Assembly: GCA_004195325.1 (NCBI GenBank)
Contig: SDWO01000167.1
Coordinates: 1-34,889, forward strand
Source of the DNA: Candidatus Izemoplasma acidinucleici
GTDB lineage: Bacteria; Bacillota_I; Bacilli_A; Izemoplasmatales; Izemoplasmataceae
DNA: 34,889 nucleotides
Direction: 5' to 3'
The notes beneath the pieces were generated by a model that worked only from the letters and a program-made list of their open reading frames with translations, had not been told where the DNA came from and made no database searches. The position numbers were made by a program, and so were the translations under genes. Positions 263-15,826 of this stretch are shown here, piece after piece (position 1 is the first letter of the stretch; every line of letters begins with the position of its first letter).

Positions 263-1750
263 ATGGCAACAGTTTCATTAGGTTTTGAAGATCAGTTATG
301 GAAGATGGCTGACAAATTAAGGGGTAATATCGAGAGCTCTGAATATAAGCACGTTATATTGGGGCTTGTTTTTTTGAAGTATATATCTGATTCATTTGAA
401 TATAAATATAATGAGTTAAAAGAAGATGGTAATGGATTTGAAGAAGATAGAGATTTTTATTCTGCTGATAACATTTTCTTTGTACCTAAAGAAGCAAGAT
501 GGGGTTATATCAAAGATAAGGCAAAAATGCCCATTATTGGAAAAATAATTGATGATTCAATGAGTCTGATAGAAAAGGAAAATAAAGAACTTAAAAATGT
601 TCTTCCAAAAACATATGCAAGACCAGATTTAGATAAAACTAAGTTGGGTGAGCTAATAGATTTATTCTCTTTTGATTTGGGTTCTAAGGAAGCGAAAGAA
701 AAAGATTTATTGGGTAGAGTATATGAGTACTTTCTTAAGAAGTTTGGAAGTACTGAAGGTGAGTTTTACACACCACCTAGCATTGTTAAGTTATTAGTTA
801 ATATGATTGAACCTTATAAAGGTAGAGTATATGATCCTTGTTGTGGTAGTGGTGGTATGTTTGTACAGTCTGCAGACTTTGTCAAACAACATCAAGGTAA
901 AATTAATGATTTATCAATATTTGGACAAGAGTTTACAGCAACTACATGGAGATTAGCTAAAATGAATTTAGCTATTCGAGGTATTGATGGTAACTTAGGT
1001 GAAAGAGATGCTGACACATTTACCAATGATCAACATAAAAACTTAAGAGCTGATTATATATTAGCTAATCCCCCATTCAATATTAAAGACTGGGGACAAA
1101 ATAGATTATTAGATGATCCTAGATGGAAATGGGGAACACCTCCATCAAGTAATGCAAACTATGCTTGGATATCACATATGATAAGTAAACTAAGCCCAAA
1201 AGGAACAGCTGGATTTGTTTTAGCAAATGGATCTTTATCAACTTCTAGAAAAGAAGAATATGAAATTAGAAAGAATATCTTGGAAGAAGGTTTGGTAGAT
1301 TGCATAATAGCTATGCCTACACAACTATTCTATGATGTTGCAATTCCGGTATCGTTATGGTTTATTTCAAAGGATAAAAATGGAAGAAAAGATAAAGTCT
1401 TATTCATTGATGCAAGTAAAATGGGATATATGGAGACTAGAAGGCATAGAGAGTTAAGAAATAAAGAGATGGAGCAAATCTATACAACCTACCACAATTG
1501 GAAGAACGATGACAATTATGAAGATATAAAAGGATTCTGCAAGTCAACAGGAATTGATGAAATTGAATCACATGAATATGTTTTAACACCTGGAAGATTC
1601 GTTGGAATCGAAGAGGAGAAAGATGATGGTATTTCATTTGAAGAAAAAATGGAGGAGTTGACATTAGAATTGTCAGATTTGTTTCAGGAATCAGAAGTCC
1701 TTGAGAGGGAAATAAAGAAGAATTTAAGAGGCATAGGGTATGAACTATAA
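263..1750 (+). CDS. hsdM: Type I restriction-modification DNA methyltransferase subunit (HsdM)
   Basis: This is the modification subunit of a Type I R-M system. It transfers a methyl group from SAM to adenine in the site recognised by HsdS, and it joins HsdS and HsdR in the restriction complex. The N-terminal HsdM_N helical domain covers about residues 5-150. The N6-adenine methylase domain follows, with the SAM-binding motif DPCCGSGG at D191 and the catalytic NPPF motif at N269. GEFYTPPSIVKLL just before motif I is also typical. The length of 495 aa is normal and the gene looks intact. AAGGAG lies 9 bases before the ATG. The 3' end overlaps hsdS by 11 bases, which implies coupled translation. 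Confidence 0.97.
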   Translation: MATVSLGFEDQLWKMADKLRGNIESSEYKHVILGLVFLKYISDSFEYKYNELKEDGNGFEEDRDFYSADNIFFVPKEARWGYIKDKAKMPIIGKIIDDSMSLIEKENKELKNVLPKTYARPDLDKTKLGELIDLFSFDLGSKEAKEKDLLGRVYEYFLKKFGSTEGEFYTPPSIVKLLVNMIEPYKGRVYDPCCGSGGMFVQSADFVKQHQGKINDLSIFGQEFTATTWRLAKMNLAIRGIDGNLGERDADTFTNDQHKNLRADYILANPPFNIKDWGQNRLLDDPRWKWGTPPSSNANYAWISHMISKLSPKGTAGFVLANGSLSTSRKEEYEIRKNILEEGLVDCIIAMPTQLFYDVAIPVSLWFISKDKNGRKDKVLFIDASKMGYMETRRHRELRNKEMEQIYTTYHNWKNDDNYEDIKGFCKSTGIDEIESHEYVLTPGRFVGIEEEKDDGISFEEKMEELTLELSDLFQESEVLEREIKKNLRGIGYEL

Positions 1751-3146
1751 TAATCTATACCCATTAGAAATACTTGAAGAGATAGAAAGGGTAAGATTGG
1801 ATAAAAACCTTCCTTTAGATGAAAAGAGAAAGAAACTTTCGTTATTTGAACTCAAGGAACTGAGAAGTATTCCAGAAGATTGGTTATATGTTACAAGCAA
1901 TGAAATCTCTGAGTTCATAACAAATGGAGTTCATTCACCAACATCCGTGGAAGACGATCTTGGATTTGGATTTAGAATGTTAAGAATAACTGATATAGAT
2001 GACAGTGGTATTGCCTCATTGGATAAACTACCTTACTGTAAGAGGTTTCAGAAAACGGATTACAATAAGTTTGTAAAAAAGAATGATATTTACATATCGT
2101 TTACTGGCAATATACTGGGAAAAAGATATTTTGCAAAACAAGATATTGAAAATGTAGTTTTTGCTCACTACTTCGTTAGATTAAGACCTTTAGTAGTAGA
2201 TCCAAGATACATATTTTACGTGATGAAGAGTTACCATTTCGAACATTTTATGAGAAAAAGAAAACTAGGATCAAGTCAACCAAATTTGAAAGTTATAGAT
2301 TTGAAGAGAATTCCTATACCTATTTGCTCTTTGTATGAACAAAAAGCAATAGCAAATATTCTATCATCATTTGATGACAAAATTGAACTAAACAACAAAA
2401 TAAATAAGAACCTAGAAAAAATGGCACAAGCATTATATAAGCAATGGTTTGTTGATTTTGAGTTTCCTCATGAAAATGGAGAACTATATAAATCTAGTGG
2501 TGGGGAAATGATAGACAGTGAAATAGGACTAATCCCTAAAAAATGGGAAGCAAAGAGAATAGATACTCTTACAAATGTTGCAATTGGGAAAACACCTCCC
2601 AGAAAAGAACATGTTTGGTTCAATGATAAAAAGAATGAAAATAATGTTAGATGGTATTCTATTAAGGATATGAAAGATGTATCAACTCAAATTTATGATT
2701 CATCAGAGTATCTAACTTTAGATGCAATACAAAAACATAATGTTAAGGTAATACCGAAAAATACAATTTTAATGAGTTTTAAGATGACAATAGGAAGATT
2801 AGCTGTAACTACAACTGAATGCACATCTAATGAAGCTATTGCTCATTTCATCAATAATGAAAGCCAAGTTTTAAACAGCTACTTGTTTTACTATTTGAAG
2901 AAGTTTAACTATGATTCCTTAGGTAGTACTTCGAGTATTGCTACTGCAATCAATTCAAAGATTGTAAAGAGTATCAAAGTACTCTTACCACCTATGCATG
3001 TTCAAGAGGAATTTAACAATGTTGTATCAACATTTATGCAAAAATCTAATTGTAATAATATAAAAAATATAAATTTAACAGACCAAAGAGATACATTGTT
3101 ACCAAAATTAATGAGTGGGGAAATAAGAGTTCCAATTAAGGAGTGA
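1740..3146 (+). CDS. hsdS: Type I restriction-modification specificity subunit (HsdS)
   Basis: This subunit recognises the DNA target for HsdM and HsdR. The architecture is the usual two-TRD type. The first target-recognition domain covers about residues 40-195 and is followed by the central conserved helix beginning EQKAIANILSSFDDKIE near residue 200 and continuing to QALYKQWFVDFEFP. The second TRD covers about 260-420, with a closing helix ending in LLPKLMSGEI. At 468 aa both halves are complete, so a bipartite target is expected, although it cannot be read from sequence. The start overlaps the hsdM stop by 11 bases, and no strong ribosome site precedes it, which fits translational coupling. 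I see no second hsdS or inverted repeats that would suggest phase variation. Confidence 0.95.
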   Translation: MNYNNLYPLEILEEIERVRLDKNLPLDEKRKKLSLFELKELRSIPEDWLYVTSNEISEFITNGVHSPTSVEDDLGFGFRMLRITDIDDSGIASLDKLPYCKRFQKTDYNKFVKKNDIYISFTGNILGKRYFAKQDIENVVFAHYFVRLRPLVVDPRYIFYVMKSYHFEHFMRKRKLGSSQPNLKVIDLKRIPIPICSLYEQKAIANILSSFDDKIELNNKINKNLEKMAQALYKQWFVDFEFPHENGELYKSSGGEMIDSEIGLIPKKWEAKRIDTLTNVAIGKTPPRKEHVWFNDKKNENNVRWYSIKDMKDVSTQIYDSSEYLTLDAIQKHNVKVIPKNTILMSFKMTIGRLAVTTTECTSNEAIAHFINNESQVLNSYLFYYLKKFNYDSLGSTSSIATAINSKIVKSIKVLLPPMHVQEEFNNVVSTFMQKSNCNNIKNINLTDQRDTLLPKLMSGEIRVPIKE

Positions 3147-3152
3147 TGCGCT

Positions 3153-6100
3153 ATGGCTATAAAATCTTATCAAGAATCAGAGATAGAAATGGCTGCTTTA
3201 GAGTGGTTTGAAGAACTAGGATATGAAATTGTATTTGGACCTGATATTGGACCTGATGGAGATTATCCTGAAAGAGAAGATTATAGTGATGTAATACTAA
3301 AAGAGCGCTTAAGGGAAGCGATTTTTGACAATAACAAACATGTACCAAAAGATGCTTTGGAAGAAGGACTAAGAGAGATACTTGTTCCTAAACATGTATC
3401 GCTAATTGAAAACAATAAGACGTTCCACAAATATATCACAGATGGAATTACAGTAAGCTATAGAACTAAAGAAGGACACATTAAACACGAACAAGCTTTC
3501 TTGTTCGATTTTAAGAATCCTAAGAACAATAACTTTCTAGCTCTTAACCAATTTGTCATTGTTGAAAATAAAGTTAAGAAGATTCCTGATATAATAATTT
3601 TTGTGAATGGCTTACCTTTAGTTGTATTTGAACTAAAAACTGCTTCAAATGAAGAAGTCAGTATAACCGATGCTTATCATCAAATTAAAACATATCAAAA
3701 TACTATAAGTAGTCTTTTTGTATATAATTCATTTAATGTTATTAGTGATGGATTTAATTCAAAAGCGGGTACATTAACGTCACAAGAAGAACGATATATG
3801 TCTTGGAGAACCATTAAAGGCGCTGAAGTCGCAAGTAGTGCATTACCTACTTTAGAAGTTCTAATTAAAGGTATGTTTGATAAAGAGAGATTTATAGATA
3901 TTATTAAACAGTTTGTATTATTCCAAGTAGATGGTAACGATACTTATAAAATCCTTTCAGGATATCACCAGTATCATGCTGTAAACAAAGCAATTGAAAC
4001 TACTTATTCTGCTACTAGCACTAATGGAGATAGAAGAATAGGAGTTATCTGGCATACACAAGGTAGTGGTAAATCACTATCTATGGTTTTCTACACAGGT
4101 AAATTGATTATAAGTGAAAAACTAGGAAACCCAACAATAGTAGTTATTACCGATAGAAATGATTTAGATGATCAATTATTTGGTACGTTTTCTAAATCAA
4201 GTAGTTTACTAAGAACTGTACCAGTTCAGGCAAAAAGTAGAGACCATTTAAAACAAATCTTAAATGGTAGAGATAGCGGTGGAATCATCTTTACTACCAT
4301 TCATAAGTTCTCACCAAATGAAGATGGAGAAGCATCGCCATTAACTAATAGGAAAAATGTAATTGTAGTCGCTGATGAAGCACATCGAAGTCAATATGGA
4401 TTCAGTGCTAAAGTAGTGACTGATAAAGATGAAGCATATGAGACATATGGTTATGCTAAATACATGAGAGATTCATTACCTAATGCATCTTATATTGGGT
4501 TTACAGGTACACCGGTAGAATTAACTGATAAAAACACTAGAGCTGTATTTGGAGACTATATAGATGTATATGATATGTCTAGAGCAGTTGAAGATGGAAC
4601 TACTGTAAAGATATTCTATGAAAGTAGAATTGCTAAGCTAGACTTAGAAGAAGAATATAGTGGATTCGTTGATGATGAATTTGAAGAGATAACAGAGTAT
4701 CAAGAAGAAGTAGAAAAAGAAAAACAAAAAAGAAAATGGGCTCGATTAGAAGCAATCGTTGGTAGTGAAGAAAGAGTTAAAATGATTGCTAAAGATATAG
4801 TTGAACATTTTGAGAAAAGGCAAGATGCCAATGAATCTGGAACAGGTAAAGCAATGATTGTTTCTATGTCTAGAAGAATAGCTGTAGAACTATATAATGC
4901 AATTGTAAATATGAGACCAGAATGGCATAATAAAGATTTACTTAAAGGAAAGATTAAAGTAGTTATGACATCCAGTTCATCAGATCCAGATAGTTGGGGA
5001 ATGCATAAAACTACTAAAGCTGATAGAGATACACTTAGTAGAAGAATGAAAGATAATAATGACGAGTTAGAGCTAGTTATTGTTAGAGATATGTGGTTAA
5101 CAGGATTTGATGTTCCTAGTATGCATACAATGTATATTGATAAACCAATGAGAGGACATAACTTAATGCAAGCAATTGCACGTGTTAACCGTGTCTTTAG
5201 AGAAAAACAAGGTGGATTAATAGTAGATTATATCGGTATAGCTGACAAGTTAAAAGAAGCTTTAACTCAGTATACTGAAGGAGATAGAGAAACTGCTGGT
5301 GTAGATACAGAATTAGCAACATCAATTATGTTAGAAAAACTAGACTTAATTAATGAAATACTTCATGAACATGATTACTCAAAATTCTTTGGTGACAAAA
5401 ACACCGATAAATTAAAAGCAATTGTCGAAACTGTTGATTTTATAATAGGGTTAAGAGAAGACAGAAAAAAAGATTACATTCAAAATGTAACAGATCTGTC
5501 AAAGGCATATAGTTTGTGTGCGACTACAGAAATCGCAGAAAAATACAACTTGAAGATTAGTTTCCATAAATCTGTAAGAGCTGGATTGATTAAGATTGCT
5601 GTAAAAGGAAGTAAAAGAAAAACAATAAAACAATTAGATACTGAATTGAATCAATTAATTTCAAAATCACTTAAATCTTCTGAAATGATAGATATTATGG
5701 CAGAAACAGGATTATCTAGACCTGATATCTCCATTTTATCAGATGAGTTCTTAGAAGAATTCAAACATATGAAACACAAAAACTTAGCTGTAGAACTACT
5801 TAACAGATTAATTCAAGGGAAAATAAGAGCAATAATGAAAAAGTCTATTATTCAATCAAGAAAATTCTCTGAGTTGTTAGAAGAAGCACTAAGGAAATAT
5901 CAAAACAGAGCAGTTGCTACAACATTAATAATTCTAGAGTTGATAGAATTAGCTAAAGACTTAACATCTGCTGAAAATATTAGTAAAGACTCAGGGTTAA
6001 CAGAGGATGAATATGCTTTCTATGAAGCACTTCAAATGAATGACTTAGCAAAAACTATAATGGGTGATGAGAAACTTAAGATGATTGCTGCGGATTTAAC

Positions 6101-6299
6101 TAAGGCAATTAAGAATAGTGTTACCATTGATTGGAATGTTAGAGATTCAGTTAGGGCGAAAATGAGAGCGACTATCAAAGTACTGCTTAAAAAATATGGT
6201 TATCCACCTGACAATCCAAGTGATCCAAATAATTATGATAATTCTGTAAAGATTATTATGGAACAAACAGAACTTGTTTGTGATAACGAGACTATCTAA
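3153..6299 (+). CDS. hsdR: Type I restriction endonuclease/translocase subunit (HsdR)
   Basis: This is the motor and nuclease subunit. It translocates unmodified DNA using ATP and cuts at a distance. The N-terminal HSDR_N nuclease domain carries a PD-(D/E)XK motif at D146, E160 and K162. The SF2 helicase core has Walker A GSGKS at 304-308, DEAH starting at D408, GFTGTP downstream, and a motif VI-like QAIARVNR. The long C-terminal helical region probably docks the methylase. At 1048 aa the protein is full length. AAGGAG at the end of hsdS sits correctly before the ATG, and the gap to the hsdS stop is only 6 bases. All three subunits look intact, so the system may be active. Confidence 0.97.
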
Positions 6300-7675
6300 T
6301 GAACTTATACAGAAAACAGCATTATGTACCTAAGTTTATAGTAAAAAATTTCACGTATAATGGTAAAAAAACAAATATCTATAATAAAGAAAACAATTCT
6401 TTTAGTAAAGAATATAAAGAGGATGCATTTCAAATCCAACATTTCTACAGAGTGAGTGAAGAAGATAATCACATTGAAATTGATATGGGAAAAACTATTG
6501 AAGATCAAGCAGCTAATATTATAAATCATAAAATTCTTAATAAATCTGAGGTTATACTAGATAGAGTTGATCTTGAATGTCTGAAAAAGTTTACTTTGTT
6601 ACAGCTCTTAAGAACCAACTCGACACGAGACAAATTCACATATGCAGCAGGAATAATCTCTGAAAGAAAAGAGTCTGAAACTGAAAGAGAACAATGGCTT
6701 AGATATTTAGATTTAATCTTGGATAATAGTATCAAAGAATTAAGAAATTCCAATATGCCTAAAATGATATCATTTTTTGCTTCACTACTATATTCCTCAA
6801 CGTATTTTGTTTTCGTAAAACCATCAATAAATATTGAATTTACTTTACCTGACAATGGGATAGTTAAAGAACCAGCATCTCTTAGGAGTTTTTTTATATT
6901 TCCAGTTGCCCCACAGTTGGCAATAATGCTTGTAGACACAGTCTATAAGAGTATTCTTAAAGAAGAATCAGTTATAGATGTGTTGCGTAACAAAGATGAT
7001 AAAATTTATCCGATTTCTATTGCGGCAATCGGACTTCTAAACCATTTCGATAAGAAAACAATAAGTGATATTTCAAGAGTTACTGTACCATTAGTATATT
7101 TTGAATCAAATAGAAATAATTACATTAAAAGCTATTCACAGGATATTTGTAATAGTGATGAGATTATAAGTTACTTTTTAGAAAACACTTTAATACACGG
7201 GGATAATCATCGATTAAAAAAAATCTATGATAGGTTCTTGTCAAGAAAGGATATTATTTCAACTTATCCTGTTTATTTTAAAAATAAAGTTCAAAGTGTT
7301 CTAAGACTATTAGATATATATTTCACAGTTGGAATTAACGAAGCCAATAATCACTTTTTATTGAACCGTATACAATTATTGCCGAATACAAGTCAACTAA
7401 TATTTGATGACGCTGATGAGTTTATTTACCAAGTGCATACTTTAAATGAGAAAACTTCAATCTATTTAAGTTACCTTCTTATTGAAGAGAGTTATTCAGC
7501 AAACGCCTATAAGGACTCAAGCAAATTAGTATACTCTTTTCTTCAGGAGAAATTTTGGAAGAAGCGCAGATTTCCAATACCAAAGATATTCGCATTAAGA
7601 ACACATCTGAAAAAAACACACGGAGAATTGTGGGAAGAGTCGTTGAGAAATTATCGCAATATATTTGGGAAATGA
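6299..7675 (+). CDS. DUF4238 family protein, fourth gene of the hsd operon
   Basis: The N-terminus QHYVPKFIVKNF (about residues 7-18), followed by an aromatic, basic stretch, is the signature of DUF4238. The biochemical activity of that family is not established, although members often sit in defence regions. The 458-aa protein is soluble, with no signal peptide or membrane segment. Beyond the N-terminal domain it is mostly helical, with no motif I recognise. Its ATG overlaps the hsdR TAA by one base (TAATG), so it is translated with the R-M genes. That linkage suggests an accessory or second-layer role, which is inference only. Confidence 0.8.
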   Translation: MNLYRKQHYVPKFIVKNFTYNGKKTNIYNKENNSFSKEYKEDAFQIQHFYRVSEEDNHIEIDMGKTIEDQAANIINHKILNKSEVILDRVDLECLKKFTLLQLLRTNSTRDKFTYAAGIISERKESETEREQWLRYLDLILDNSIKELRNSNMPKMISFFASLLYSSTYFVFVKPSINIEFTLPDNGIVKEPASLRSFFIFPVAPQLAIMLVDTVYKSILKEESVIDVLRNKDDKIYPISIAAIGLLNHFDKKTISDISRVTVPLVYFESNRNNYIKSYSQDICNSDEIISYFLENTLIHGDNHRLKKIYDRFLSRKDIISTYPVYFKNKVQSVLRLLDIYFTVGINEANNHFLLNRIQLLPNTSQLIFDDADEFIYQVHTLNEKTSIYLSYLLIEESYSANAYKDSSKLVYSFLQEKFWKKRRFPIPKIFALRTHLKKTHGELWEESLRNYRNIFGK

Positions 7676-7967: not shown

Positions 7968-7996
7968 TTTATAGAATAATCACGATGTGGTATAAT
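7968..7996 (+). promoter_or_regulatory. Promoter of the DUF4357-nuclease gene
   Basis: TTTATA (7968-7973), a 17-base spacer and a perfect TATAAT (7991-7996) lie just before the AGGGGGTG ribosome site at about 8002-8009. The -10 box lies inside the longer open frame that begins at 7985, so translation must start at 8015. The 5' leader would be only about a dozen bases. Confidence 0.65.
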
Positions 7997-8014
7997 GATT
8001 TAGGGGGTGTAATT

Positions 8015-9529
8015 ATGAGACTATTTCTTAAAGATGCGGTATTGGAATACGAGAGTGGAAAGTATGTTTTAAAAGAGAAATCTAAGGTGAACATGAATAA
8101 AGCACCTAGTTTTTTAAAGCATACTTTTTCTAATGTCCATACTAAGATAATCAACAAAAAAATAAATGACAATAATGAAATTATAGAGGATATTGAATGT
8201 TCTTCATTATCTCAAGCTTGCTCTATTGTTCTTGGAAGAAGTTGTAATGGTAGAACTGCATGGAAAAACGAAGATGGTACAAAAGCTGAGGATTTAATTG
8301 ATTTCTTTTCTGAATCGAGCAGTACTGACGACAAAGTTGTATTAGAGGAGTTCTTAAGGGATATAGAGGTACTGGATAGTCTAGAAAACTACTCATCACA
8401 ATTTAATCCATTTGACGTGTTAAATATTATTGATAATGAGATAAGACATAGTAATGTTTTAGGGTGGTTATTAGATCCAAATGAAACACATGAAATTGAT
8501 AATGAGTTTTTAATCAAATTAATTAGAGATATATACAAAGAGAACGAAAATTCTAATGTTTATAATCATCTTAAGTTAAGTGAAGTATTCCTTATGGACT
8601 TCGAAGATGTAGAAGTTAGAAGAGAATGGAAAAATATCGATTTGCTTGTTATTAGCAATGAACAGAAATTTATTCTAATGATCGAGAATAAGATATGGTC
8701 TGAAGAGAGTAAAACACAACTCTCAAGATACTATGATATTATCAAAGATGATTTTAAAGGGTATAATGTTATGCCGGTATTTCTGACACCTGAGTTAAAG
8801 GAACCCTCAGATGATAGATGGGGGATTTACTCATATTTGGGAGTACTTAACATCTTAGATAAAATTACTATAAAAATACCAAGAGAATCAACAAAGACAT
8901 TTATAAGGCAATATACAGATATTTTAAGGAGGAAAATTGTGGGAAATCAAGAACTTGAGAAATTATGTCTAGACATTTATAGAAAACACAAAAGAGCATT
9001 GGATTTAATTTACGAAAACAAACCAGATCAGTACTCGCAAATATATGAATTGGTAAAAGGCATTATAGAAAATAGTGATGAACTTAAATTGGATCATCAT
9101 ACAAAGTCAAATATCAAATTTTATGTAGAACTTTTTGATGAAAAATTAAAGAAAGAGTCTATTAATTGGACTAGTACAAAAAGACTGCTATTGTTTGAGG
9201 TTGAGAACTCAGGAGATACTTTGAAGATATCCTTAAAATTAGGACCATGTGAACAAAATGTGAGAATAGGTATATTGAATTTTTTTGATAAGCATTATGA
9301 TGATAAAAAAAGGCTCTTACTAAAAGTAATGAGAAATGGAGTTCCAAAAGGAACGAAGTATACTTCGATTTATACAAGAAGAATCGTTACAAGTTCAAGC
9401 TACAAGGATTTAGATTATGAAGGTTTTGAGAAGAAAATACAATCTGTGTTTAAGGATTTTATTAAAAAAGATTTAGAGGAACTTAAGAAAATAATCAATG
9501 AAATTAGTTGGGACTTAATTTCATTTTAA
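8015..9529 (+). CDS. DUF4357 domain fused to a PD-(D/E)XK family nuclease
   Basis: The likely start is ATG 8015 (504 aa), because an upstream in-frame ATG at 7985 precedes the promoter. Residues about 63-95 (SLSQACSIVLGRSCNG then WK) match the DUF4357 pattern, a short presumed domain often attached to nucleases. The following region, DVLNIIDNEIRHSNVLGWLL, resembles the PDDEXK_4 N-terminal motif with its HS-xLxWLLDP signature. The catalytic set is D209, E224 and K226, within IDLLV and MIENKIW. The C-terminal 200 residues are unassigned. The protein has no membrane segment. It lies in a defence island, so an anti-phage nuclease role is plausible. Its substrate, DNA or RNA, cannot be told from sequence. 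It may be co-transcribed with the radical SAM gene 65 bases downstream, since I see no terminator between them. Confidence 0.8.
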   Translation: MRLFLKDAVLEYESGKYVLKEKSKVNMNKAPSFLKHTFSNVHTKIINKKINDNNEIIEDIECSSLSQACSIVLGRSCNGRTAWKNEDGTKAEDLIDFFSESSSTDDKVVLEEFLRDIEVLDSLENYSSQFNPFDVLNIIDNEIRHSNVLGWLLDPNETHEIDNEFLIKLIRDIYKENENSNVYNHLKLSEVFLMDFEDVEVRREWKNIDLLVISNEQKFILMIENKIWSEESKTQLSRYYDIIKDDFKGYNVMPVFLTPELKEPSDDRWGIYSYLGVLNILDKITIKIPRESTKTFIRQYTDILRRKIVGNQELEKLCLDIYRKHKRALDLIYENKPDQYSQIYELVKGIIENSDELKLDHHTKSNIKFYVELFDEKLKKESINWTSTKRLLLFEVENSGDTLKISLKLGPCEQNVRIGILNFFDKHYDDKKRLLLKVMRNGVPKGTKYTSIYTRRIVTSSSYKDLDYEGFEKKIQSVFKDFIKKDLEELKKIINEISWDLISF

Positions 9530-9594: not shown

Positions 9595-10821
9595 ATGAAT
9601 AAGGTTCTATTTATCACATATGATTTTCACGAGGAGTATAAACCACCGAAAAGCATTGCTGTAGCTACATTAGAAAGTTACATTAATGAATTTTGCTCTA
9701 TTGATTTTGTGGATCATCATTCCTTTAATATGAATGATGAAAGCAATATAATGTTTAAGCAAACAAGTGATTTACTTAAGCTGCTAGAGACTGAATATGA
9801 TTTTATATGTATTTCATTATACTCATGGAGTACAAGGTTTATTGATCGTATTTTGGATATTATCAGAGATACTCAAAAGAATGTAAAAGTTATTGCTGGG
9901 GGATATGAAGTTAATACAAGTAATATAGATACTCTTATAAAAAGATATGAGGACATAGATCATTTTATTATTGGGTATGCTGAGACTGCATTAGCAGCAT
10001 TGATTAATATGCAAGAGACCTTAAAAATCATAGATATCAAAGTGGAAAACAATATGATTCCTCAAATTTATGAAAATAGAATAATTGGTGTTTGTACTGA
10101 GAGTATTGTGAGATTAGAGACTAAAAGAGGATGTCCATATAATTGTAGTTTCTGCTCCTATAAGAATAATGATCATAATAAGTGTACTACACATAATTTT
10201 ATAAAAGTTAAAAAGGAATTGAACTATTTAAATCAAATCGGAGTAAGGAAAGTTAATGTTCTAGATCCGATCTTTACAATAGATAATTATTTGGAGTTGC
10301 TGGAATACTTGATAGTTATTGATTTTAAACCAGTTATTTCTTTTCAAGTGAAGTTTGAACTATTTCACGGTCTTTTAATTAAAAGTTCAATGTTATTACC
10401 ATATCTTAAGAAACTTAATGTGATTCTGGAATTCGGATTACAAACAATTTCCAAGATTGCCCTCGACAATGTTGAAAGAATTCACGATTTGGAGAAAGTT
10501 TCAGATGTGATTGCAAGGCTGAATGCTGATGATATTGAATACGAAGTATCAATTATAAGAGGCTTGCCTGGTGAGACAATAGAATCTTATATAGAATTGC
10601 TGGAATATTTAAAAACCAGCAAGTGTAGAAATATAGTAGCCTTTCCCTTAACTATTCTTTCAAATACTGAGCTTGATAATAAAAGAGATGAGTTGGGGAT
10701 TAAGACAATAAACCACAATGGACTGGAGTATATATATGAATCATACTCGTTCAACTACAAAGATTACTTGTCAATGATAAGGGAAGAAAACGCATTAATA
10801 GCAAAAAAAATATTGTTGTGA
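9595..10821 (+). CDS. Radical SAM protein with B12-binding-like N-terminal domain
   Basis: The cysteine triad CxxxCxxC is present as C180, C184 and C187 in RGCPYNCSFCSYK, so the protein should bind a 4Fe-4S cluster and cleave SAM to a radical. The N-terminal about 150 residues look like the Rossmann-type cobalamin-binding fold of B12-dependent radical SAM enzymes. This rests on VLFITYDFHEEYKPPKSIAVATLESY, then VIAGGYEVN and IIGYAETAL. The DxHxxG cobalamin ligand motif is not evident, so cobalamin itself may not bind. ILEFGLQTISKIALDNVER and RGLPGETIESY are typical later radical SAM motifs. The substrate is unknown. AGGGGGAT gives a good ribosome site. The gene lies between a nuclease gene and a MazG gene, a defence-type setting. 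Confidence 0.85.
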   Translation: MNKVLFITYDFHEEYKPPKSIAVATLESYINEFCSIDFVDHHSFNMNDESNIMFKQTSDLLKLLETEYDFICISLYSWSTRFIDRILDIIRDTQKNVKVIAGGYEVNTSNIDTLIKRYEDIDHFIIGYAETALAALINMQETLKIIDIKVENNMIPQIYENRIIGVCTESIVRLETKRGCPYNCSFCSYKNNDHNKCTTHNFIKVKKELNYLNQIGVRKVNVLDPIFTIDNYLELLEYLIVIDFKPVISFQVKFELFHGLLIKSSMLLPYLKKLNVILEFGLQTISKIALDNVERIHDLEKVSDVIARLNADDIEYEVSIIRGLPGETIESYIELLEYLKTSKCRNIVAFPLTILSNTELDNKRDELGIKTINHNGLEYIYESYSFNYKDYLSMIREENALIAKKILL

Positions 10822-10868
10822 TAAACACAAGGATTCTATGATATGATATTTCTATGAAGGTGATTAAT

Positions 10869-11195
10869 ATGAATGATTATAAAAACATAATAGAACAACT
10901 TACTAAATTCAGAGATGATAGAAATTGGAAACAATTTCATACACCTGAGAACTTATCTAAAAGTATTGTCCTAGAAGCAACAGAACTATTAGAAAACTAT
11001 CAGTGGGGTAGTGATCATGCTGATATGGAGAATGTAAAAGAAGAAGTAGCGGATATCTTTAGTTACTTATTACTTTTATGTGATGTATTAGATGTTGATT
11101 TACTTGAAGCAACTAAAGACAAAATCAAAAAGAACATAGAAAAGTATCCAGTAGATAAAGCATATGGTAAGTCAAAGAAGTATAATAAACTGTAA
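10869..11195 (+). CDS. MazG-like nucleotide pyrophosphohydrolase
   Basis: This is a small all-alpha NTP pyrophosphatase. It would hydrolyse (d)NTPs to monophosphate and pyrophosphate. The family motif is seen in LSKSIVLEATELLENYQW (E..E pair) and VKEEVADIFSYLLLL (EExxD), which provide the Mg ligands. I prefer the ATG at 10869 (108 aa), because AAGGTG at 10857-10862 is then a correctly spaced ribosome site, whereas the earlier ATG at 10854 would overlap it. The product is shorter than E. coli MazG and belongs to the single-domain MazG-like group often seen with phage and defence genes. The stop codon is built into the terminator that follows. A decayed second copy of its 3' end lies at 14316-14360. 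Confidence 0.88.
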   Translation: MNDYKNIIEQLTKFRDDRNWKQFHTPENLSKSIVLEATELLENYQWGSDHADMENVKEEVADIFSYLLLLCDVLDVDLLEATKDKIKKNIEKYPVDKAYGKSKKYNKL

Positions 11196-11218
11196 CAAGC
11201 ACTCAGTGCTTGTTTTTT
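11194..11218 (+). terminator. Terminator after the mazG-like gene
   Basis: An 8-bp stem (11194-11201 with 11207-11214) with loop CTCAG is followed by a T-run. A nearly identical terminator occurs at 14359-14384. Confidence 0.85.
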
Positions 11219-11244
11219 CTTCAAAGTAAAGTTATAGAAGTAAT

Positions 11245-11273
11245 TTTACAAACTGTTTTTCAAATGATAAAAT
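11245..11273 (+). promoter_or_regulatory. Promoter of the four-TM protein gene
   Basis: TTTACA (11245-11250), a 17-base spacer and TAAAAT (11268-11273) are each one base off consensus. The ribosome site AGGAGG starts at 11276, so the transcript leader is very short. Confidence 0.65.
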
Positions 11274-11287
11274 GTAGGAGGGAGATG

Positions 11288-13141
11288 ATGTGTATGGGAC
11301 TTAAGAAAATGGATTTAAGGGAGCAACTAAATATAGAATTCAATAGAGACAGGTTGATTTCTGTTTTTAATGGTGAAAGACTTGAACTTAAGTTTTATGA
11401 GAGGAAAGATAGTGATTTCCTTGGCAAACAGAAACTTATGGAAACAGCTGTAGTTATAAAGGATAGTACAGCTCATATAATAATTTCCGAAGATTTATTT
11501 GATTCAACATTAAATGGGAATATAGAAGCACTAAGTGAATATGAGAACTTACTCGTCGATTCTAATAGTAAATTAAGAGTATTACTATTACCTTTTACTT
11601 TTTTACCGATTTTATGGTTTACTTGGTACATAGTGTATTTGACATATCCTGAGTTTTTATATGGGTTACCATTTTGGTTACAAGTAATAGGGGCATTGTT
11701 TCTTACATTGTTCTACTTTGGACCTATTACATACGCAGTGATTATCAAGTATAAATCTAATCGTTATCATTCTCCAAAAAGGAACATGCTGAATAAAGTT
11801 ATTAGAAACAAAGAGTTTAGAAGGACATATAAACTGTTTAAAAAAGGACAAAAGAGATCTTTCAAAGATAAGGAAATAAACATCTATATACTTCCGATTC
11901 TTCGTAAAACGATTACTAAAGTCATCATGGGGTACTCATTATTAATCATACTCTTTGCATTTTTGTCTATGCCTATTATCATGTTTGGAGGGAACATTAG
12001 TGATTTACCAATATATATAAAAGGGTCATTTGAACAAACAACACCCAATCCAGGATTCATTAATACGAAGTATGAATACATTGAGACAATTGATAACCCT
12101 ACATCAAGTATGTTATTTAGTTGTGGTGATTATTTATGTGGTAGCAGCTCAGGGTTCTATACAACGATATATGATTACCAGTATAATGAGTTGGATTTAA
12201 GTGGATATTGTGATGATTTAGAGTATTGCTCTCTATCAGTTTATGATCAATTCATTCATATACTTTTAAGAGATTCAGAGCGGTTAGGTTATAAGAATTT
12301 AGTAATTGATTATTCAAGTGGAACTGTCATGTATGAATTTGTTATTGATGATATCGGAGATGATACTTGGGAGTATCTTGCGATTTTTGATTTGGCGTAT
12401 GATGCTAATACATCGACAATGTATTTTGTTGGAAAATTAAATACAATTGATGACAATTTCTCTGTGATTTTTAGTATTGATGAATTTGATAATGTTAACA
12501 TTCAAACTAATGAAGGACTTTTTGCAAATAATATTGTTATAGATGACTACATTTATTTTGTAACTGATAATGGAGAGTTTGATATTCTTTATCAATATAC
12601 ACTTGATTTAGAACTAGTAAATCAAATTGAGGTCCAAAATCGATCATTAAGTGAACCATATTTCACAATGTTTGATAATGATTTATACATTAAAACTGAA
12701 ACTTCATTTTTTGTTTACAGAACATATAAGGTAAACGATGAGTTAGAACTAGAGGAAGTATTAAAAACTATTGAGATAAACAATGATGTACATTTTTACG
12801 ATGATTATTTACTGGTATCAGGTCGAATGAGTAATTTTAAAGAGTATGACAGTACTTTCAAGGTTGTTAACAAAGGTTTGATCTGTGATGATTGTAGTGA
12901 ATCTGATTATTATGGTTATAGAAGTTATGTGAAGAGAGATGGATATTTATATTCATTTGGATTAGATAATATCATTATATTTGAGGAAATGGATAGTAAC
13001 CAAAGAACGATTTCCCCACCAGTCTTAATCCCAGCGTTGGAATGGGGTATAATTGGAATTGCGTTAGTAATAAATGTAATTTCTATCTTATGGATTGTTA
13101 GAGAAAAGAAGCATATACAGGCTATTAAGACTATATCGTGA
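11288..13141 (+). CDS. Membrane protein with large extracellular domain, unknown function
   Basis: I do not recognise this protein. From ATG 11288 (six bases after AGGAGG) it has 617 aa; ATGs at 11285 and 11294 are alternatives. About 95 cytosolic residues come first. Hydrophobic helices follow at about 97-117, 128-150 and 208-232, then about 350 residues probably outside the cell, a last helix at about 580-604, and a short basic tail. The outer part is rich in short beta-strand-like segments ending in Y, D and F, and looks like a beta-propeller; this is inference. Six cysteines in close pairs (SCGDYLC, YCDDLEYC, CDDC) could form disulfides. It has its own promoter and lies in the islet flanked by mazG-tail sequences. 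Confidence 0.7.
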   Translation: MCMGLKKMDLREQLNIEFNRDRLISVFNGERLELKFYERKDSDFLGKQKLMETAVVIKDSTAHIIISEDLFDSTLNGNIEALSEYENLLVDSNSKLRVLLLPFTFLPILWFTWYIVYLTYPEFLYGLPFWLQVIGALFLTLFYFGPITYAVIIKYKSNRYHSPKRNMLNKVIRNKEFRRTYKLFKKGQKRSFKDKEINIYILPILRKTITKVIMGYSLLIILFAFLSMPIIMFGGNISDLPIYIKGSFEQTTPNPGFINTKYEYIETIDNPTSSMLFSCGDYLCGSSSGFYTTIYDYQYNELDLSGYCDDLEYCSLSVYDQFIHILLRDSERLGYKNLVIDYSSGTVMYEFVIDDIGDDTWEYLAIFDLAYDANTSTMYFVGKLNTIDDNFSVIFSIDEFDNVNIQTNEGLFANNIVIDDYIYFVTDNGEFDILYQYTLDLELVNQIEVQNRSLSEPYFTMFDNDLYIKTETSFFVYRTYKVNDELELEEVLKTIEINNDVHFYDDYLLVSGRMSNFKEYDSTFKVVNKGLICDDCSESDYYGYRSYVKRDGYLYSFGLDNIIIFEEMDSNQRTISPPVLIPALEWGIIGIALVINVISILWIVREKKHIQAIKTIS

Positions 13142-13188
13142 TGGTGATTAAGAACAAGTACTTGCTGCTTGGTTTCATTTGAATATAT

Positions 13189-13217
13189 TTTACAGTTCAT
13201 ATATATTATGGTAGAAT
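13189..13217 (+). promoter_or_regulatory. Promoter of the small NPNN-repeat gene
   Basis: TTTACA (13189-13194), a 17-base spacer and TAGAAT (13212-13217) are followed by TAAGGAG at 13226-13232 before the ATG at 13241. Confidence 0.65.
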
Positions 13218-13240
13218 TTAATATGTAAGGAGTTGATACG

Positions 13241-13411
13241 ATGTCTAAAAGAGGTGGAGTATCAGATACACATACACAACAACAAAGGGATGATTATGCA
13301 AATCAAAACAATCCTAATAATCAAGCACATCAAGATGATTTAGATAATCACGCAGACCAATTAAACCCCAACAACGAAGAACATCAAGGTGAAGAAGAGG
13401 AAGACAAATAG
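13241..13411 (+). CDS. Small hydrophilic NPNN-repeat protein (56 aa)
   Basis: This short gene has a clean promoter, a TAAGGAG ribosome site 8 bases before the ATG, and a perfect terminator starting inside its last codons. The product begins MSKRGGVSDTHTQQQ. It then has two copies of a 15-residue unit, DDYANQNNPNNQAHQ and DNHADQLNPNNEEHQ, separated by DDL, and ends in an acidic tail. It contains no cysteine or tryptophan and no hydrophobic stretch. The (Y/H)A(N/D)QxNPNN motif resembles small uncharacterised bacterial proteins I have seen, with no known function. It is probably unstructured or folds on binding a partner. Confidence 0.75.
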   Translation: MSKRGGVSDTHTQQQRDDYANQNNPNNQAHQDDLDNHADQLNPNNEEHQGEEEEDK

Positions 13412-13430
13412 AATTTTCTATTTGTCTTTT
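13403..13430 (+). terminator. Terminator of the small NPNN-repeat gene
   Basis: A perfect 9-bp stem (13403-13411 with 13418-13426) with loop AATTTT is followed by TTTTATTTTA. The stop codon TAG lies in the left arm. Confidence 0.85.
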
Positions 13431-13474
13431 ATTTTATCTTTATATCTTTAATAATGTGGATAAGTTAGAAGTCA

Positions 13475-13503
13475 TTTACTGAAACGGCTTATTATGGTAA
13501 AAT
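13475..13503 (+). promoter_or_regulatory. Promoter of the NYN-LOTUS gene
   Basis: TTTACT (13475-13480), a 17-base spacer and TAAAAT (13498-13503) are followed by the ribosome site GGGAAGGAG at 13509-13517 and ATG at 13526. Confidence 0.6.
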
Positions 13504-13525
13504 TATAAGGGAAGGAGTGGTTTAA

Positions 13526-14290
13526 ATGGACGTATCAGAAAGAAGTATAGCGATATTAATCGATGCTGAAAATATATCACCTAAGTATATAAGTTTAATA
13601 ATAGATGAAGCAAACAAACATGGTAAATTAAATTACAGAAGAATATATGGGGATTGGACTGGAACCCAACTCAAGAAATGGAAAGATTCTTGTTTGAAGC
13701 ATGCCTTAAGACCTGTACAACAATTTGCGAGTGTTAGTGGTAAGAACTCATCAGATTTTTCACTTGTAATTGACGCAATGGATATATTAAGTAGTGGGAA
13801 AGCAACTGGTTTCTGTATCATCTCAAGTGATGGAGATTTTAGTAGATTGATTGTCAGATTAAAAGAAGATGATATGTATTGTTTTGGAATGGGAGAAGAG
13901 AAAACACCGATTTCTCTTGTTAGTTCATACGAAAGCTTTACCTATTTAGATACCCTGTATAAAGTAGTTCAAGCTGAAAAGAAAGCTGCTCAGGACAAAA
14001 ACAATGTAGTAGCTAAGAAAAAGACAACAGCATCACCGAAGAAAAAGAAAGAAACAAGTATTACTCCTGAATACATTATCAAGAATTATGTGAAACAAGT
14101 CATTGAAAGAGAAGCAGAAGATGATGGATGGATTATGTGGAGTAAAGTAGCGAATATGCTTAAAAAGAAATACCCTGGATTTAATCCAACTAACTACGGG
14201 AAGAATATTAAGAAACTAGCCTACTTTAAAAGGAGTCAAAAGTTTTCAATCAAAAATGAAGGTAAAGTTGCCTTCATTAGAAACAAGTAG
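13526..14290 (+). CDS. NYN-domain (PIN-like) ribonuclease with C-terminal OST-HTH/LOTUS domain
   Basis: Residues about 5-150 form a LabA/DUF88-type NYN domain. The acidic residues expected of a metal-dependent RNase are in ILIDAEN, SSDFSLVIDAMDIL and IISSDGDFSRLI. A lysine-rich linker (about 155-180, AKKKTTASPKKKKE) follows. Then comes an OST-HTH/LOTUS winged-helix domain of about 70 residues, TPEYIIKNYVKQ to AFIRNK, with the typical W-x-x-x-S/A-x-L-L-K/x-Y/F-x-x-F pattern. LOTUS domains bind RNA or helicases in other organisms. Predicted function: RNA cleavage or decay guided by the C-terminal domain. The 254-aa architecture is known in bacteria, but its role is not. The gene is intact, with its own promoter. 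Confidence 0.88.
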   Translation: MDVSERSIAILIDAENISPKYISLIIDEANKHGKLNYRRIYGDWTGTQLKKWKDSCLKHALRPVQQFASVSGKNSSDFSLVIDAMDILSSGKATGFCIISSDGDFSRLIVRLKEDDMYCFGMGEEKTPISLVSSYESFTYLDTLYKVVQAEKKAAQDKNNVVAKKKTTASPKKKKETSITPEYIIKNYVKQVIEREAEDDGWIMWSKVANMLKKKYPGFNPTNYGKNIKKLAYFKRSQKFSIKNEGKVAFIRNK

Positions 14291-14306
14291 ATAGAAAATA
14301 CATGAA

Positions 14307-14360
14307 TGAATACTTCTAGATAAAGCGTATGGTAGTTCTAAAAAATATAGTAAACTTTAA
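14307..14360 (+). pseudogene. Remnant of a second mazG-like 3' end
   Basis: Bases 14316-14360 align without gaps to the last 45 bases of the mazG-like gene (11151-11195) with 9 mismatches. The translation LDKAYGSSKKYSKL-stop compares with VDKAYGKSKKYNKL-stop. About ten bases further left also resemble mazG, but in another frame, and a TGA at 14307-14309 closes the frame. So this is a broken fragment, not a gene. The matching terminator follows directly. Confidence 0.8.
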
Positions 14361-14384
14361 ACAAGCACTTAGTGCTTGTTTTTT
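14359..14384 (+). terminator. Terminator copy after the mazG remnant
   Basis: The stem AACAAGCA/TGCTTGTT with loop CTTAG and a T-run differs from the terminator at 11194-11218 by one loop base and one extra A. It now serves the NYN-LOTUS gene. Confidence 0.85.
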
Positions 14385-14403
14385 ATTTCTAGAATGGTTC
14401 TAT

Positions 14404-14432
14404 TTGACAATTCTCAATCAAGGTGATATTAT
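14404..14432 (+). promoter_or_regulatory. Promoter of the arsR/serine hydrolase operon
   Basis: Perfect TTGACA (14404-14409), a 17-base spacer and TATTAT (14427-14432) precede the ArsR-type gene. As ArsR proteins usually control their own promoter, an operator may overlap here, but no clear dyad was seen. Confidence 0.75.
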
Positions 14433-14469
14433 CTAAATAAGCAATCACTTAAATGGATGGAGTGAAGAT

Positions 14470-14736
14470 ATGAAGAACTATAGTAATATATTTAAAGCAC
14501 TTGGAGATGAAACCAGATTAAAAATAGTGCATTTATTATTGAATGCGGAATACTGTGTTGGAGGACTAGCGAAAGCATTGAAGATATCTGATTCAGCTGT
14601 GTCGCAACATATGAAAATACTTAAGGATGCAAAACTAGTTTTTGGCAAGAAGGTTGGATACTATACTCATTATAGAGTTCAAAAGGAAGGTCTTGAATTA
14701 ATAATTAATGAAATTAAGAAGTGGACTTTGTTATAG
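14470..14736 (+). CDS. ArsR-family winged-helix transcriptional regulator
   Basis: This 88-aa protein has the ArsR/SmtB core: FKALGDETRLKIVHLLL, then GGLAKALKISDSAVSQHMKIL as the recognition helix, and a beta-wing with GYYTHYRV. It binds promoter DNA as a dimer and normally represses its operon. A CVGG-type motif sits near the first HTH helix (YCVGGL), but a full metal-binding ELCVCDL box is absent, so metal sensing is not supported. The next gene starts 19 bases after its stop, so both genes form an operon. Confidence 0.88.
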   Translation: MKNYSNIFKALGDETRLKIVHLLLNAEYCVGGLAKALKISDSAVSQHMKILKDAKLVFGKKVGYYTHYRVQKEGLELIINEIKKWTLL

Positions 14737-14755
14737 TGAAAGGAGTAGTGATTTC

Positions 14756-15826
14756 ATGAAGAAAAGTATAATAATGATTTTACTAATATCCTCTTTATTC
14801 TTAAGTTCTTGCAGTGAAGAAAAAGATGAGGATATAATAAATGACCTAAATGATGTTGAGTATAGCGCAACATTTCTATCAGATATAAAAGAAACTTTAA
14901 GTGAGGCTGAATCAATAAATAATTTATATGGTATTTCTATTCTCGTAGATGGGGAATTAATTGCTGATGAATTTTTTGGTCACCAGGAAGATAGAAGTCG
15001 AAACAATATATTCTCAGTAACCAAAAGTGTTACCTCTATTTTAGTAGGTATCGCAATAGAAGAAGGATATATAGATAGTGTTGAACAATCTATCGGAGAC
15101 TACATTGATTTATCAATGTATGATACTGAAAGTGATTTATCTGAAATAAAGATTAAACACCTTCTTACCATGAGTGCTGGACTAATATGGGATTCAAATG
15201 ATTTGGCTGGAGAAATGATAAGTCTTAGAAGCTCTCCAGATCCTTTAAGTTTAATTTTAGAAAGAGAATTAGGCTTTACACCAGGCACTAGGTTTAACTA
15301 CAGTGATGGATCTGCTCATTTAATTTCAGTGATTCTCTCAGAGGCTACAGGAATGTCAACTAGAGACTTCGCAGTAGAGCATTTATTTACTCCACTTGGT
15401 ATTGATAACCTTTATTGGAATGAAGATACTCAGGGAATAAATATTGGGGGTTGTGATCTATACTTATCACATGTCCACTTAGCACTTATAGGAAACCTAG
15501 TTTTAAATAATGGTGTTCACAATGGTGAGCAAATCGTTTCTGAAGAGTGGCTAAATATATCAACAACAAACCAAATATCATCATTCGCAAGTCATGGGTA
15601 TGGATATTACTGGTGGTTAAATAGTATACAGGGATATAGAATAATATCCGCAAAAGGTTGGGGTGGACAAAACATCTATATACTTCCTGATTTTGATATT
15701 GTGATTACTACATCGGCAAACGGAATTATCTCTGGAGATATAGCTTCAACTCAGTTTGATGAAATTGATGATTTCATAGTAGAAGATATAATTCCCTTGT
15801 TAATTAACGAGTTAAAGAAAGATTAG
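14756..15826 (+). CDS. Lipoprotein serine hydrolase of the class C beta-lactamase/PBP-like family
   Basis: From ATG 14756 (after AAAGGAG; the longer frame from 14708 runs through the arsR stop region) the protein has 356 aa. A lipoprotein signal peptide ends in the lipobox LSSC, so it should be anchored on the outer face of the membrane. The catalytic S-x-x-K is S87-VT-K90 (FSVTKS). The tyrosine motif is Y182-S-D, and the third motif is KGWGGQ (300-305). Family members act as esterases, peptidases or transpeptidase-like enzymes. Real beta-lactamase activity cannot be concluded. It is co-transcribed with the ArsR gene. Confidence 0.87.
   Translation: MKKSIIMILLISSLFLSSCSEEKDEDIINDLNDVEYSATFLSDIKETLSEAESINNLYGISILVDGELIADEFFGHQEDRSRNNIFSVTKSVTSILVGIAIEEGYIDSVEQSIGDYIDLSMYDTESDLSEIKIKHLLTMSAGLIWDSNDLAGEMISLRSSPDPLSLILERELGFTPGTRFNYSDGSAHLISVILSEATGMSTRDFAVEHLFTPLGIDNLYWNEDTQGINIGGCDLYLSHVHLALIGNLVLNNGVHNGEQIVSEEWLNISTTNQISSFASHGYGYYWWLNSIQGYRIISAKGWGGQNIYILPDFDIVITTSANGIISGDIASTQFDEIDDFIVEDIIPLLINELKKD

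Follow-up and report, generated by a model that had tools for sequence, protein, structure and literature searches.

The 3' end of a MazG-like gene, together with the terminator behind it, occurs twice in the stretch of DNA analysed here (the window: 34,889 nucleotides, contig 94 of assembly G000, affiliated with an Izemoplasma-like family), once on the intact gene and once as a short remnant 3.2 kb downstream in direct orientation. The most economical reading, to which we assign a probability of about one half, is that the second occurrence (14316-14387) is what remains of another, truncated copy of a defence-associated MazG-like gene: the last 14 codons, the stop and the terminator at its 3' end. 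The assembly comprises 1.93 Mb in 191 contigs with a completeness of 89%, and its nearest comparison genomes belong to other genera of the order.

The repeated mazG tail

10854 to 11195, + strand: intact MazG-like gene, 113 aa (PF12643 E = 7.5e-15; PF03819 E = 2e-5)
11151 to 11221, + strand: repeat copy 1, mazG codons 100-113, stop and intrinsic terminator with stem 11194-11214 (BLAST, alignment)
14316 to 14387, + strand: repeat copy 2, mazG tail remnant reading LDKAYGSSKKYSKL* and terminator with stem 14359-14381 (BLAST, alignment, shuffles)

The sequence-only reading had proposed that the mazG 3' end and its terminator recur at a second place with about 80% identity, and this was borne out (80-85%). 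The mazG tail at 11152-11195 aligns with 14317-14360 at 82% identity and ungapped, the terminators after both tails match (AACAAGCACT[C/T]AGTGCTTGTTTTTT), and a BLAST search finds copy 2 (85% over 70 bp, E = 7.9e-15) as the sole other copy of the tail in the assembly. The homology between the copies breaks off abruptly at both ends: left of 14316 the alignment to mazG is no better than that of shuffled sequence, so that the proposed leftward continuation of the second copy in frameshifted form was not recovered, and right of about 14387 there is no alignment to the flank of copy 1. Copy 2 is thus homologous to part of a gene only; the open frame is lost, 14 codons and the stop are left, and the terminator stem is intact.

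Relatives (G058) have short hairpin terminators that resemble this one in sequence, and the match was for this reason also weighed as a coincidence or as a commonplace terminator motif that recurs; this is hardly conceivable in view of the E-value, the local alignment score of the two tails (123, against a shuffle maximum of 92) and the absence of a close match to the hairpin elsewhere in the assembly, where the terminator pattern is exact at two places only and the next best site has three mismatches. The two copies in G000 share almost the whole terminator, and G010 shares the outer stem only (AACAAGCA...TGCTTGTT).

Divergence of the two tails

The coding parts of the two tails differ at nine of 45 bases, which is too few for firm statements on rates. 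From the mazG tails of other genera the remnant differs at nine (G008) and seven (G010) bases, and because it differs from the intact copy as much as from these, it appears to be an old paralogue or an acquisition from another lineage. The raw differences show an excess at third codon positions (six of nine, P = 0.04). This excess was rejected as a proof that both copies had long been coding, since the functional copy accounts for some of the changes. With G008 and G010 as outgroups, four changes are assigned to the intact copy, every one of them at a third codon position, and four to the remnant, at positions 1, 2, 2 and 3, with one further change being ambiguous; numbers of four changes each are small, and the pattern would fit a working gene and a non-coding remnant.

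The missing third-position bias on the remnant branch is also in favour of another origin, namely template switching or some other illegitimate event that copied nothing but the 70-bp gene end. The copy would have been kept for ending the transcript of the NYN-LOTUS gene described below ('terminator capture'), and no second full mazG would have stood here at any time. Such copying would agree with a block that starts inside the gene, stops just past the T-run and has no similarity beyond either end, and with a terminator stem that is intact as if selected. However, a divergence as deep as that between genera would require an ancient or foreign mazG as the source, and the loss of similarity past the terminator is also expected from the drift of unconstrained DNA. 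We regard this origin as possible but doubtful.

The intact mazG and its defence neighbourhood

263 to 6299, + strand: type I restriction-modification genes hsdM, hsdS and hsdR, left part of the defence cluster, at the contig start (PADLOC, ORF translations)
6299 to 7675, + strand: DUF4238 protein (Pfam PF14022 E = 1.7e-27)
7985 to 9529, + strand: PD-(D/E)XK nuclease with DUF4357, candidate defence gene PDC-S26 (Pfam; PADLOC E = 4.3e-107)
9595 to 10821, + strand: B12-binding radical SAM protein, candidate defence gene PDC-M51A (Pfam; PADLOC E = 2.7e-76)

The hsdM gene was recognised by PADLOC (MTase_I, E = 2.6e-213), and hsdS and hsdR were identified from ORF translations. The PF12643 match of the MazG-like protein scores 55.4 bits against a curated cut-off of 27, its orthologues in the order are up to 70% identical, and several relatives have two or three MazG genes per genome. 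Closely related mazG genes are adjoined by Schlafen-group-3 (SLFN-g3) helicases in G005, G016, G030 and G046, a GIY-YIG domain being present in two of the four helicases, and these mazG loci lie at unrelated places; apart from them, the mazG loci of relatives have no neighbours in common with the window. Because related MazG genes adjoin SLFN-g3 helicases at unrelated places, the gene must move, and mazG is here a relocating, defence-associated gene and not a fixed housekeeping landmark.

At four loci (L061, L064, L065 and L159; four genera), MazG-like genes are directly beside SLFN-g3 helicase genes and overlap them in three, and the two probably constitute a two-gene defence unit. In the window, 33 bp separate the end of the PDC-M51A radical SAM gene from mazG (9595-11195 for the two), and these genes may form a unit in place of the helicase-MazG pair. 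A literature search on MazG with radical SAM in defence islands and on islets at 3' ends gave nothing useful.

No second mazG tail was found beside the 21 other mazG loci of the order, which were also searched for other islets at mazG 3' ends with the same outcome. The pattern of the mazG tail is absent from the viral contigs searched, and one viral contig carries one distant MazG relative.

The right border

14404 to 14469, + strand: arsR promoter (TTGACA-17-TATTAT) and leader; similarity to the arsR locus of G063 is found here, just right of the remnant
14470 to 15826, + strand: arsR regulator and beta-lactamase-fold lipoprotein, a pair that is also present in G063 (73% and 54% identity)

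A close orthologue of arsR was found in only one of 61 genomes (G063, another genus), followed there by the same lipoprotein gene. The arsR promoter region of G063 resembles that of the window, and upstream of it is a divergent ABC-transporter gene and no mazG. An uninterrupted mazG-arsR junction, for which the relatives were searched, was not found among the genomes compared. Since the gene upstream in G063 is that of an ABC transporter and not mazG, the two genera differ at the point at which the remnant adjoins the arsR promoter. The remnant is best read as the right-hand limit of the defence cluster towards the conserved arsR-lipoprotein pair.

The genes between the two copies

11285 to 13141, + strand: orphan membrane protein, 618 aa, with four or five hydrophobic stretches and a strand-rich middle (hydropathy)
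13241 to 13411, + strand: NPNN microprotein, 56 aa, with its own promoter-like site and terminator (codon-position bias, ribosome-binding site)
13526 to 14290, + strand: NYN and OST-HTH/LOTUS protein, 254 aa (PF01936 E = 1.6e-28, PF12872 E = 2.4e-5)

These contents are as first described from the sequence (a four-TM protein, an NPNN-repeat protein and NYN-LOTUS), and each of the three genes is preceded by a promoter-like site of its own. The listed start of the membrane protein is a TTG at 11210, but position 11285, which has a ribosome-binding site, is the better candidate. The protein has no Pfam match and no homologue in 49 family genomes or in the genome_contigs collection, and its AlphaFold model (pLDDT 36) is too poor for use. 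The NYN domain scores 100.5 bits and OST-HTH/LOTUS 24.5 bits against cut-offs of 24.2 and 23.8, respectively, which places the protein among the RNase-like NYN-LOTUS proteins as a predicted nuclease. Its orthologues exist in about 20 of the 41 genomes searched, at varied places, and it is a common chromosomal gene of the order and not evident cargo. At the 23 loci examined in relatives, no mazG tail lies behind it.

In G002, G017 and G003 (L072, L073 and L074; two genera), a more distant MazG gene is immediately before the NYN-LOTUS gene, in an arrangement that looks like one operon. The two gene types thus meet more than once.

An intact gene followed by cargo and by a displaced 3' end in direct orientation has the layout of 3'-end integration, and the segment could represent a small element of the membrane protein, NPNN and NYN-LOTUS genes, inserted site-specifically into the mazG 3' end; the element's own copy of the end would complete mazG, and the displaced native end would have stayed at the right border. 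The absence of the membrane protein from all other genomes searched would suit such an element, as would the finding of NPNN and NYN genes side by side in two other contigs, one in G014 and the other G000:C11, where a gene for a tyrosine recombinase lies about 4 kb off. However, there is no recombinase or integrase gene between the repeats, the G+C content of the segment matches that of the flanks without a composition shift, and the 21 other mazG genes have no second tail. The varied chromosomal places of NYN-LOTUS in the order and the arsR locus of G063 without mazG also speak against it. An element inserted into the mazG 3' end, as suggested from the sequence, is accordingly unsupported, and we consider it unlikely.

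The NPNN microprotein family

Between the NPNN gene of the window and its homologue in G022, there are 8, 1 and 23 differences at codon positions 1, 2 and 3, respectively, and because of this third-position bias and the ribosome-binding site that precedes it, NPNN is taken as a real gene. Relatives carrying the motif YANQNNPNN...DNHADQLNPNN were found at 60 loci in genome_contigs (window 13241-13411, L097-L156 and L093-L095 being the loci of the family), some of which share only one motif repeat; they belong to many phyla, ranging from Mollicutes and Clostridia to Chloroflexota and archaea. The family genome G014 carries its NPNN locus on an 8067-base contig. No match to the family was found in Pfam, NCBIfam, PHROGs or PADLOC, nor in plasmids and phages, where the low-complexity filter may hide matches, and a literature search on the motif gave nothing useful.

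The immediate neighbours of NPNN genes include NYN (window, G000:C11 and G014), HNH (L101, L105, L108 and L110), hsdS with hsdR (L100 and L104), RNase III (L109), DEDDh exonucleases (L093 and L135) and a Mrr-type endonuclease (L107). Nuclease families are rare among the 61 genes three or four places away, as judged from the 25 commonest families per scan. In this comparison, which is rough as the loci are phylogenetically non-independent, the NPNN proteins appear as an unnamed family that extends across phyla, with an enrichment of nucleases of unrelated folds among the immediate neighbours of its genes.

The hsdS and hsdR genes of Bilifractor and of a Spirochaetaceae MAG have the NPNN gene between them, and it shares a few bases with the end of hsdS:

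L100, about 5847 to 6014: NPNN gene in type I restriction-modification system
L104, about 6001 to 6165: NPNN gene in type I restriction-modification system

A second NPNN gene of G000 (G000:C11, L095, 1788-2857, - strand) is followed by a NYN protein of another type and has a DUF4238-like gene upstream; the N-terminal part looks frame-disturbed. NPNN genes are also beside MATE-type transporter genes in Ignavibacteriales, Izemoplasma-like and Methanocorpusculum genomes (L098, L094/L099 and L123). That the segment of the window is a mobile two-gene unit of the NPNN microprotein and the NYN nuclease, with NPNN as a general nuclease partner (perhaps a defence inhibitor or adaptor) and mazG 3' ends as one landing site, seems improbable to us.

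Origin of the remnant

According to the favoured reading as a truncated second mazG, a gene family that relocates readily, usually alongside defence genes, once left a full second copy immediately 5' of the arsR-lipoprotein pair. The part ahead of codon 100 would then have been lost in a rearrangement that placed NYN-LOTUS beside the remnant. The remnant would no longer make protein; its hairpin and T-run, about 70 bp behind NYN-LOTUS, probably end the transcript of that gene and shield the arsR promoter.

Of the two origins offered by the sequence-only reading, a tandem mazG copy decayed around inserted cargo comes nearer to this, since the divergence of the tail is as large as that between genera and mazG changes its place within defence clusters. 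A decayed second copy fits better, but the words 'tandem' and 'around inserted cargo' found no support. Against a truncated copy are the sharp left boundary, with nothing surviving of the rest of the second mazG, and the intact NYN-LOTUS gene, which ends only 26 bp from the remnant. Moreover, no genome with two full mazG copies at this place was found among the genomes compared, which are of other genera.

The mazG tail remnant is an ordinary genome scar; it illustrates the arrival, duplication and decay of defence-associated genes such as mazG, and the way in which a terminator left behind can be put to new use. The NPNN family, a by-product of the analysis, may matter more, as a family of tiny proteins without a database entry whose possible role as a nuclease partner is testable.

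Comparison with known systems

As in the integrative elements at the 3' ends of tRNA, tmRNA and guaA genes, a direct repeat of a gene 3' end flanks a few genes in the window; unlike in those elements, there is no integrase and no identical core, the repeat is only about 82% identical, and the arrangement does not recur at other mazG ends. The intact mazG is closely related to the MazG-like (PF12643) genes that are paired with SLFN-g3 (DUF2075-type) helicases, but here it follows the PDC-M51A radical SAM gene, with no such helicase adjacent. The gene remnants at the borders of defence clusters resemble the present case in that a truncated defence-associated gene lies beside restriction-modification, nuclease and radical SAM candidate defence genes; the case differs from them in that only 14 codons and a terminator are left, and in that this terminator probably serves a new gene.
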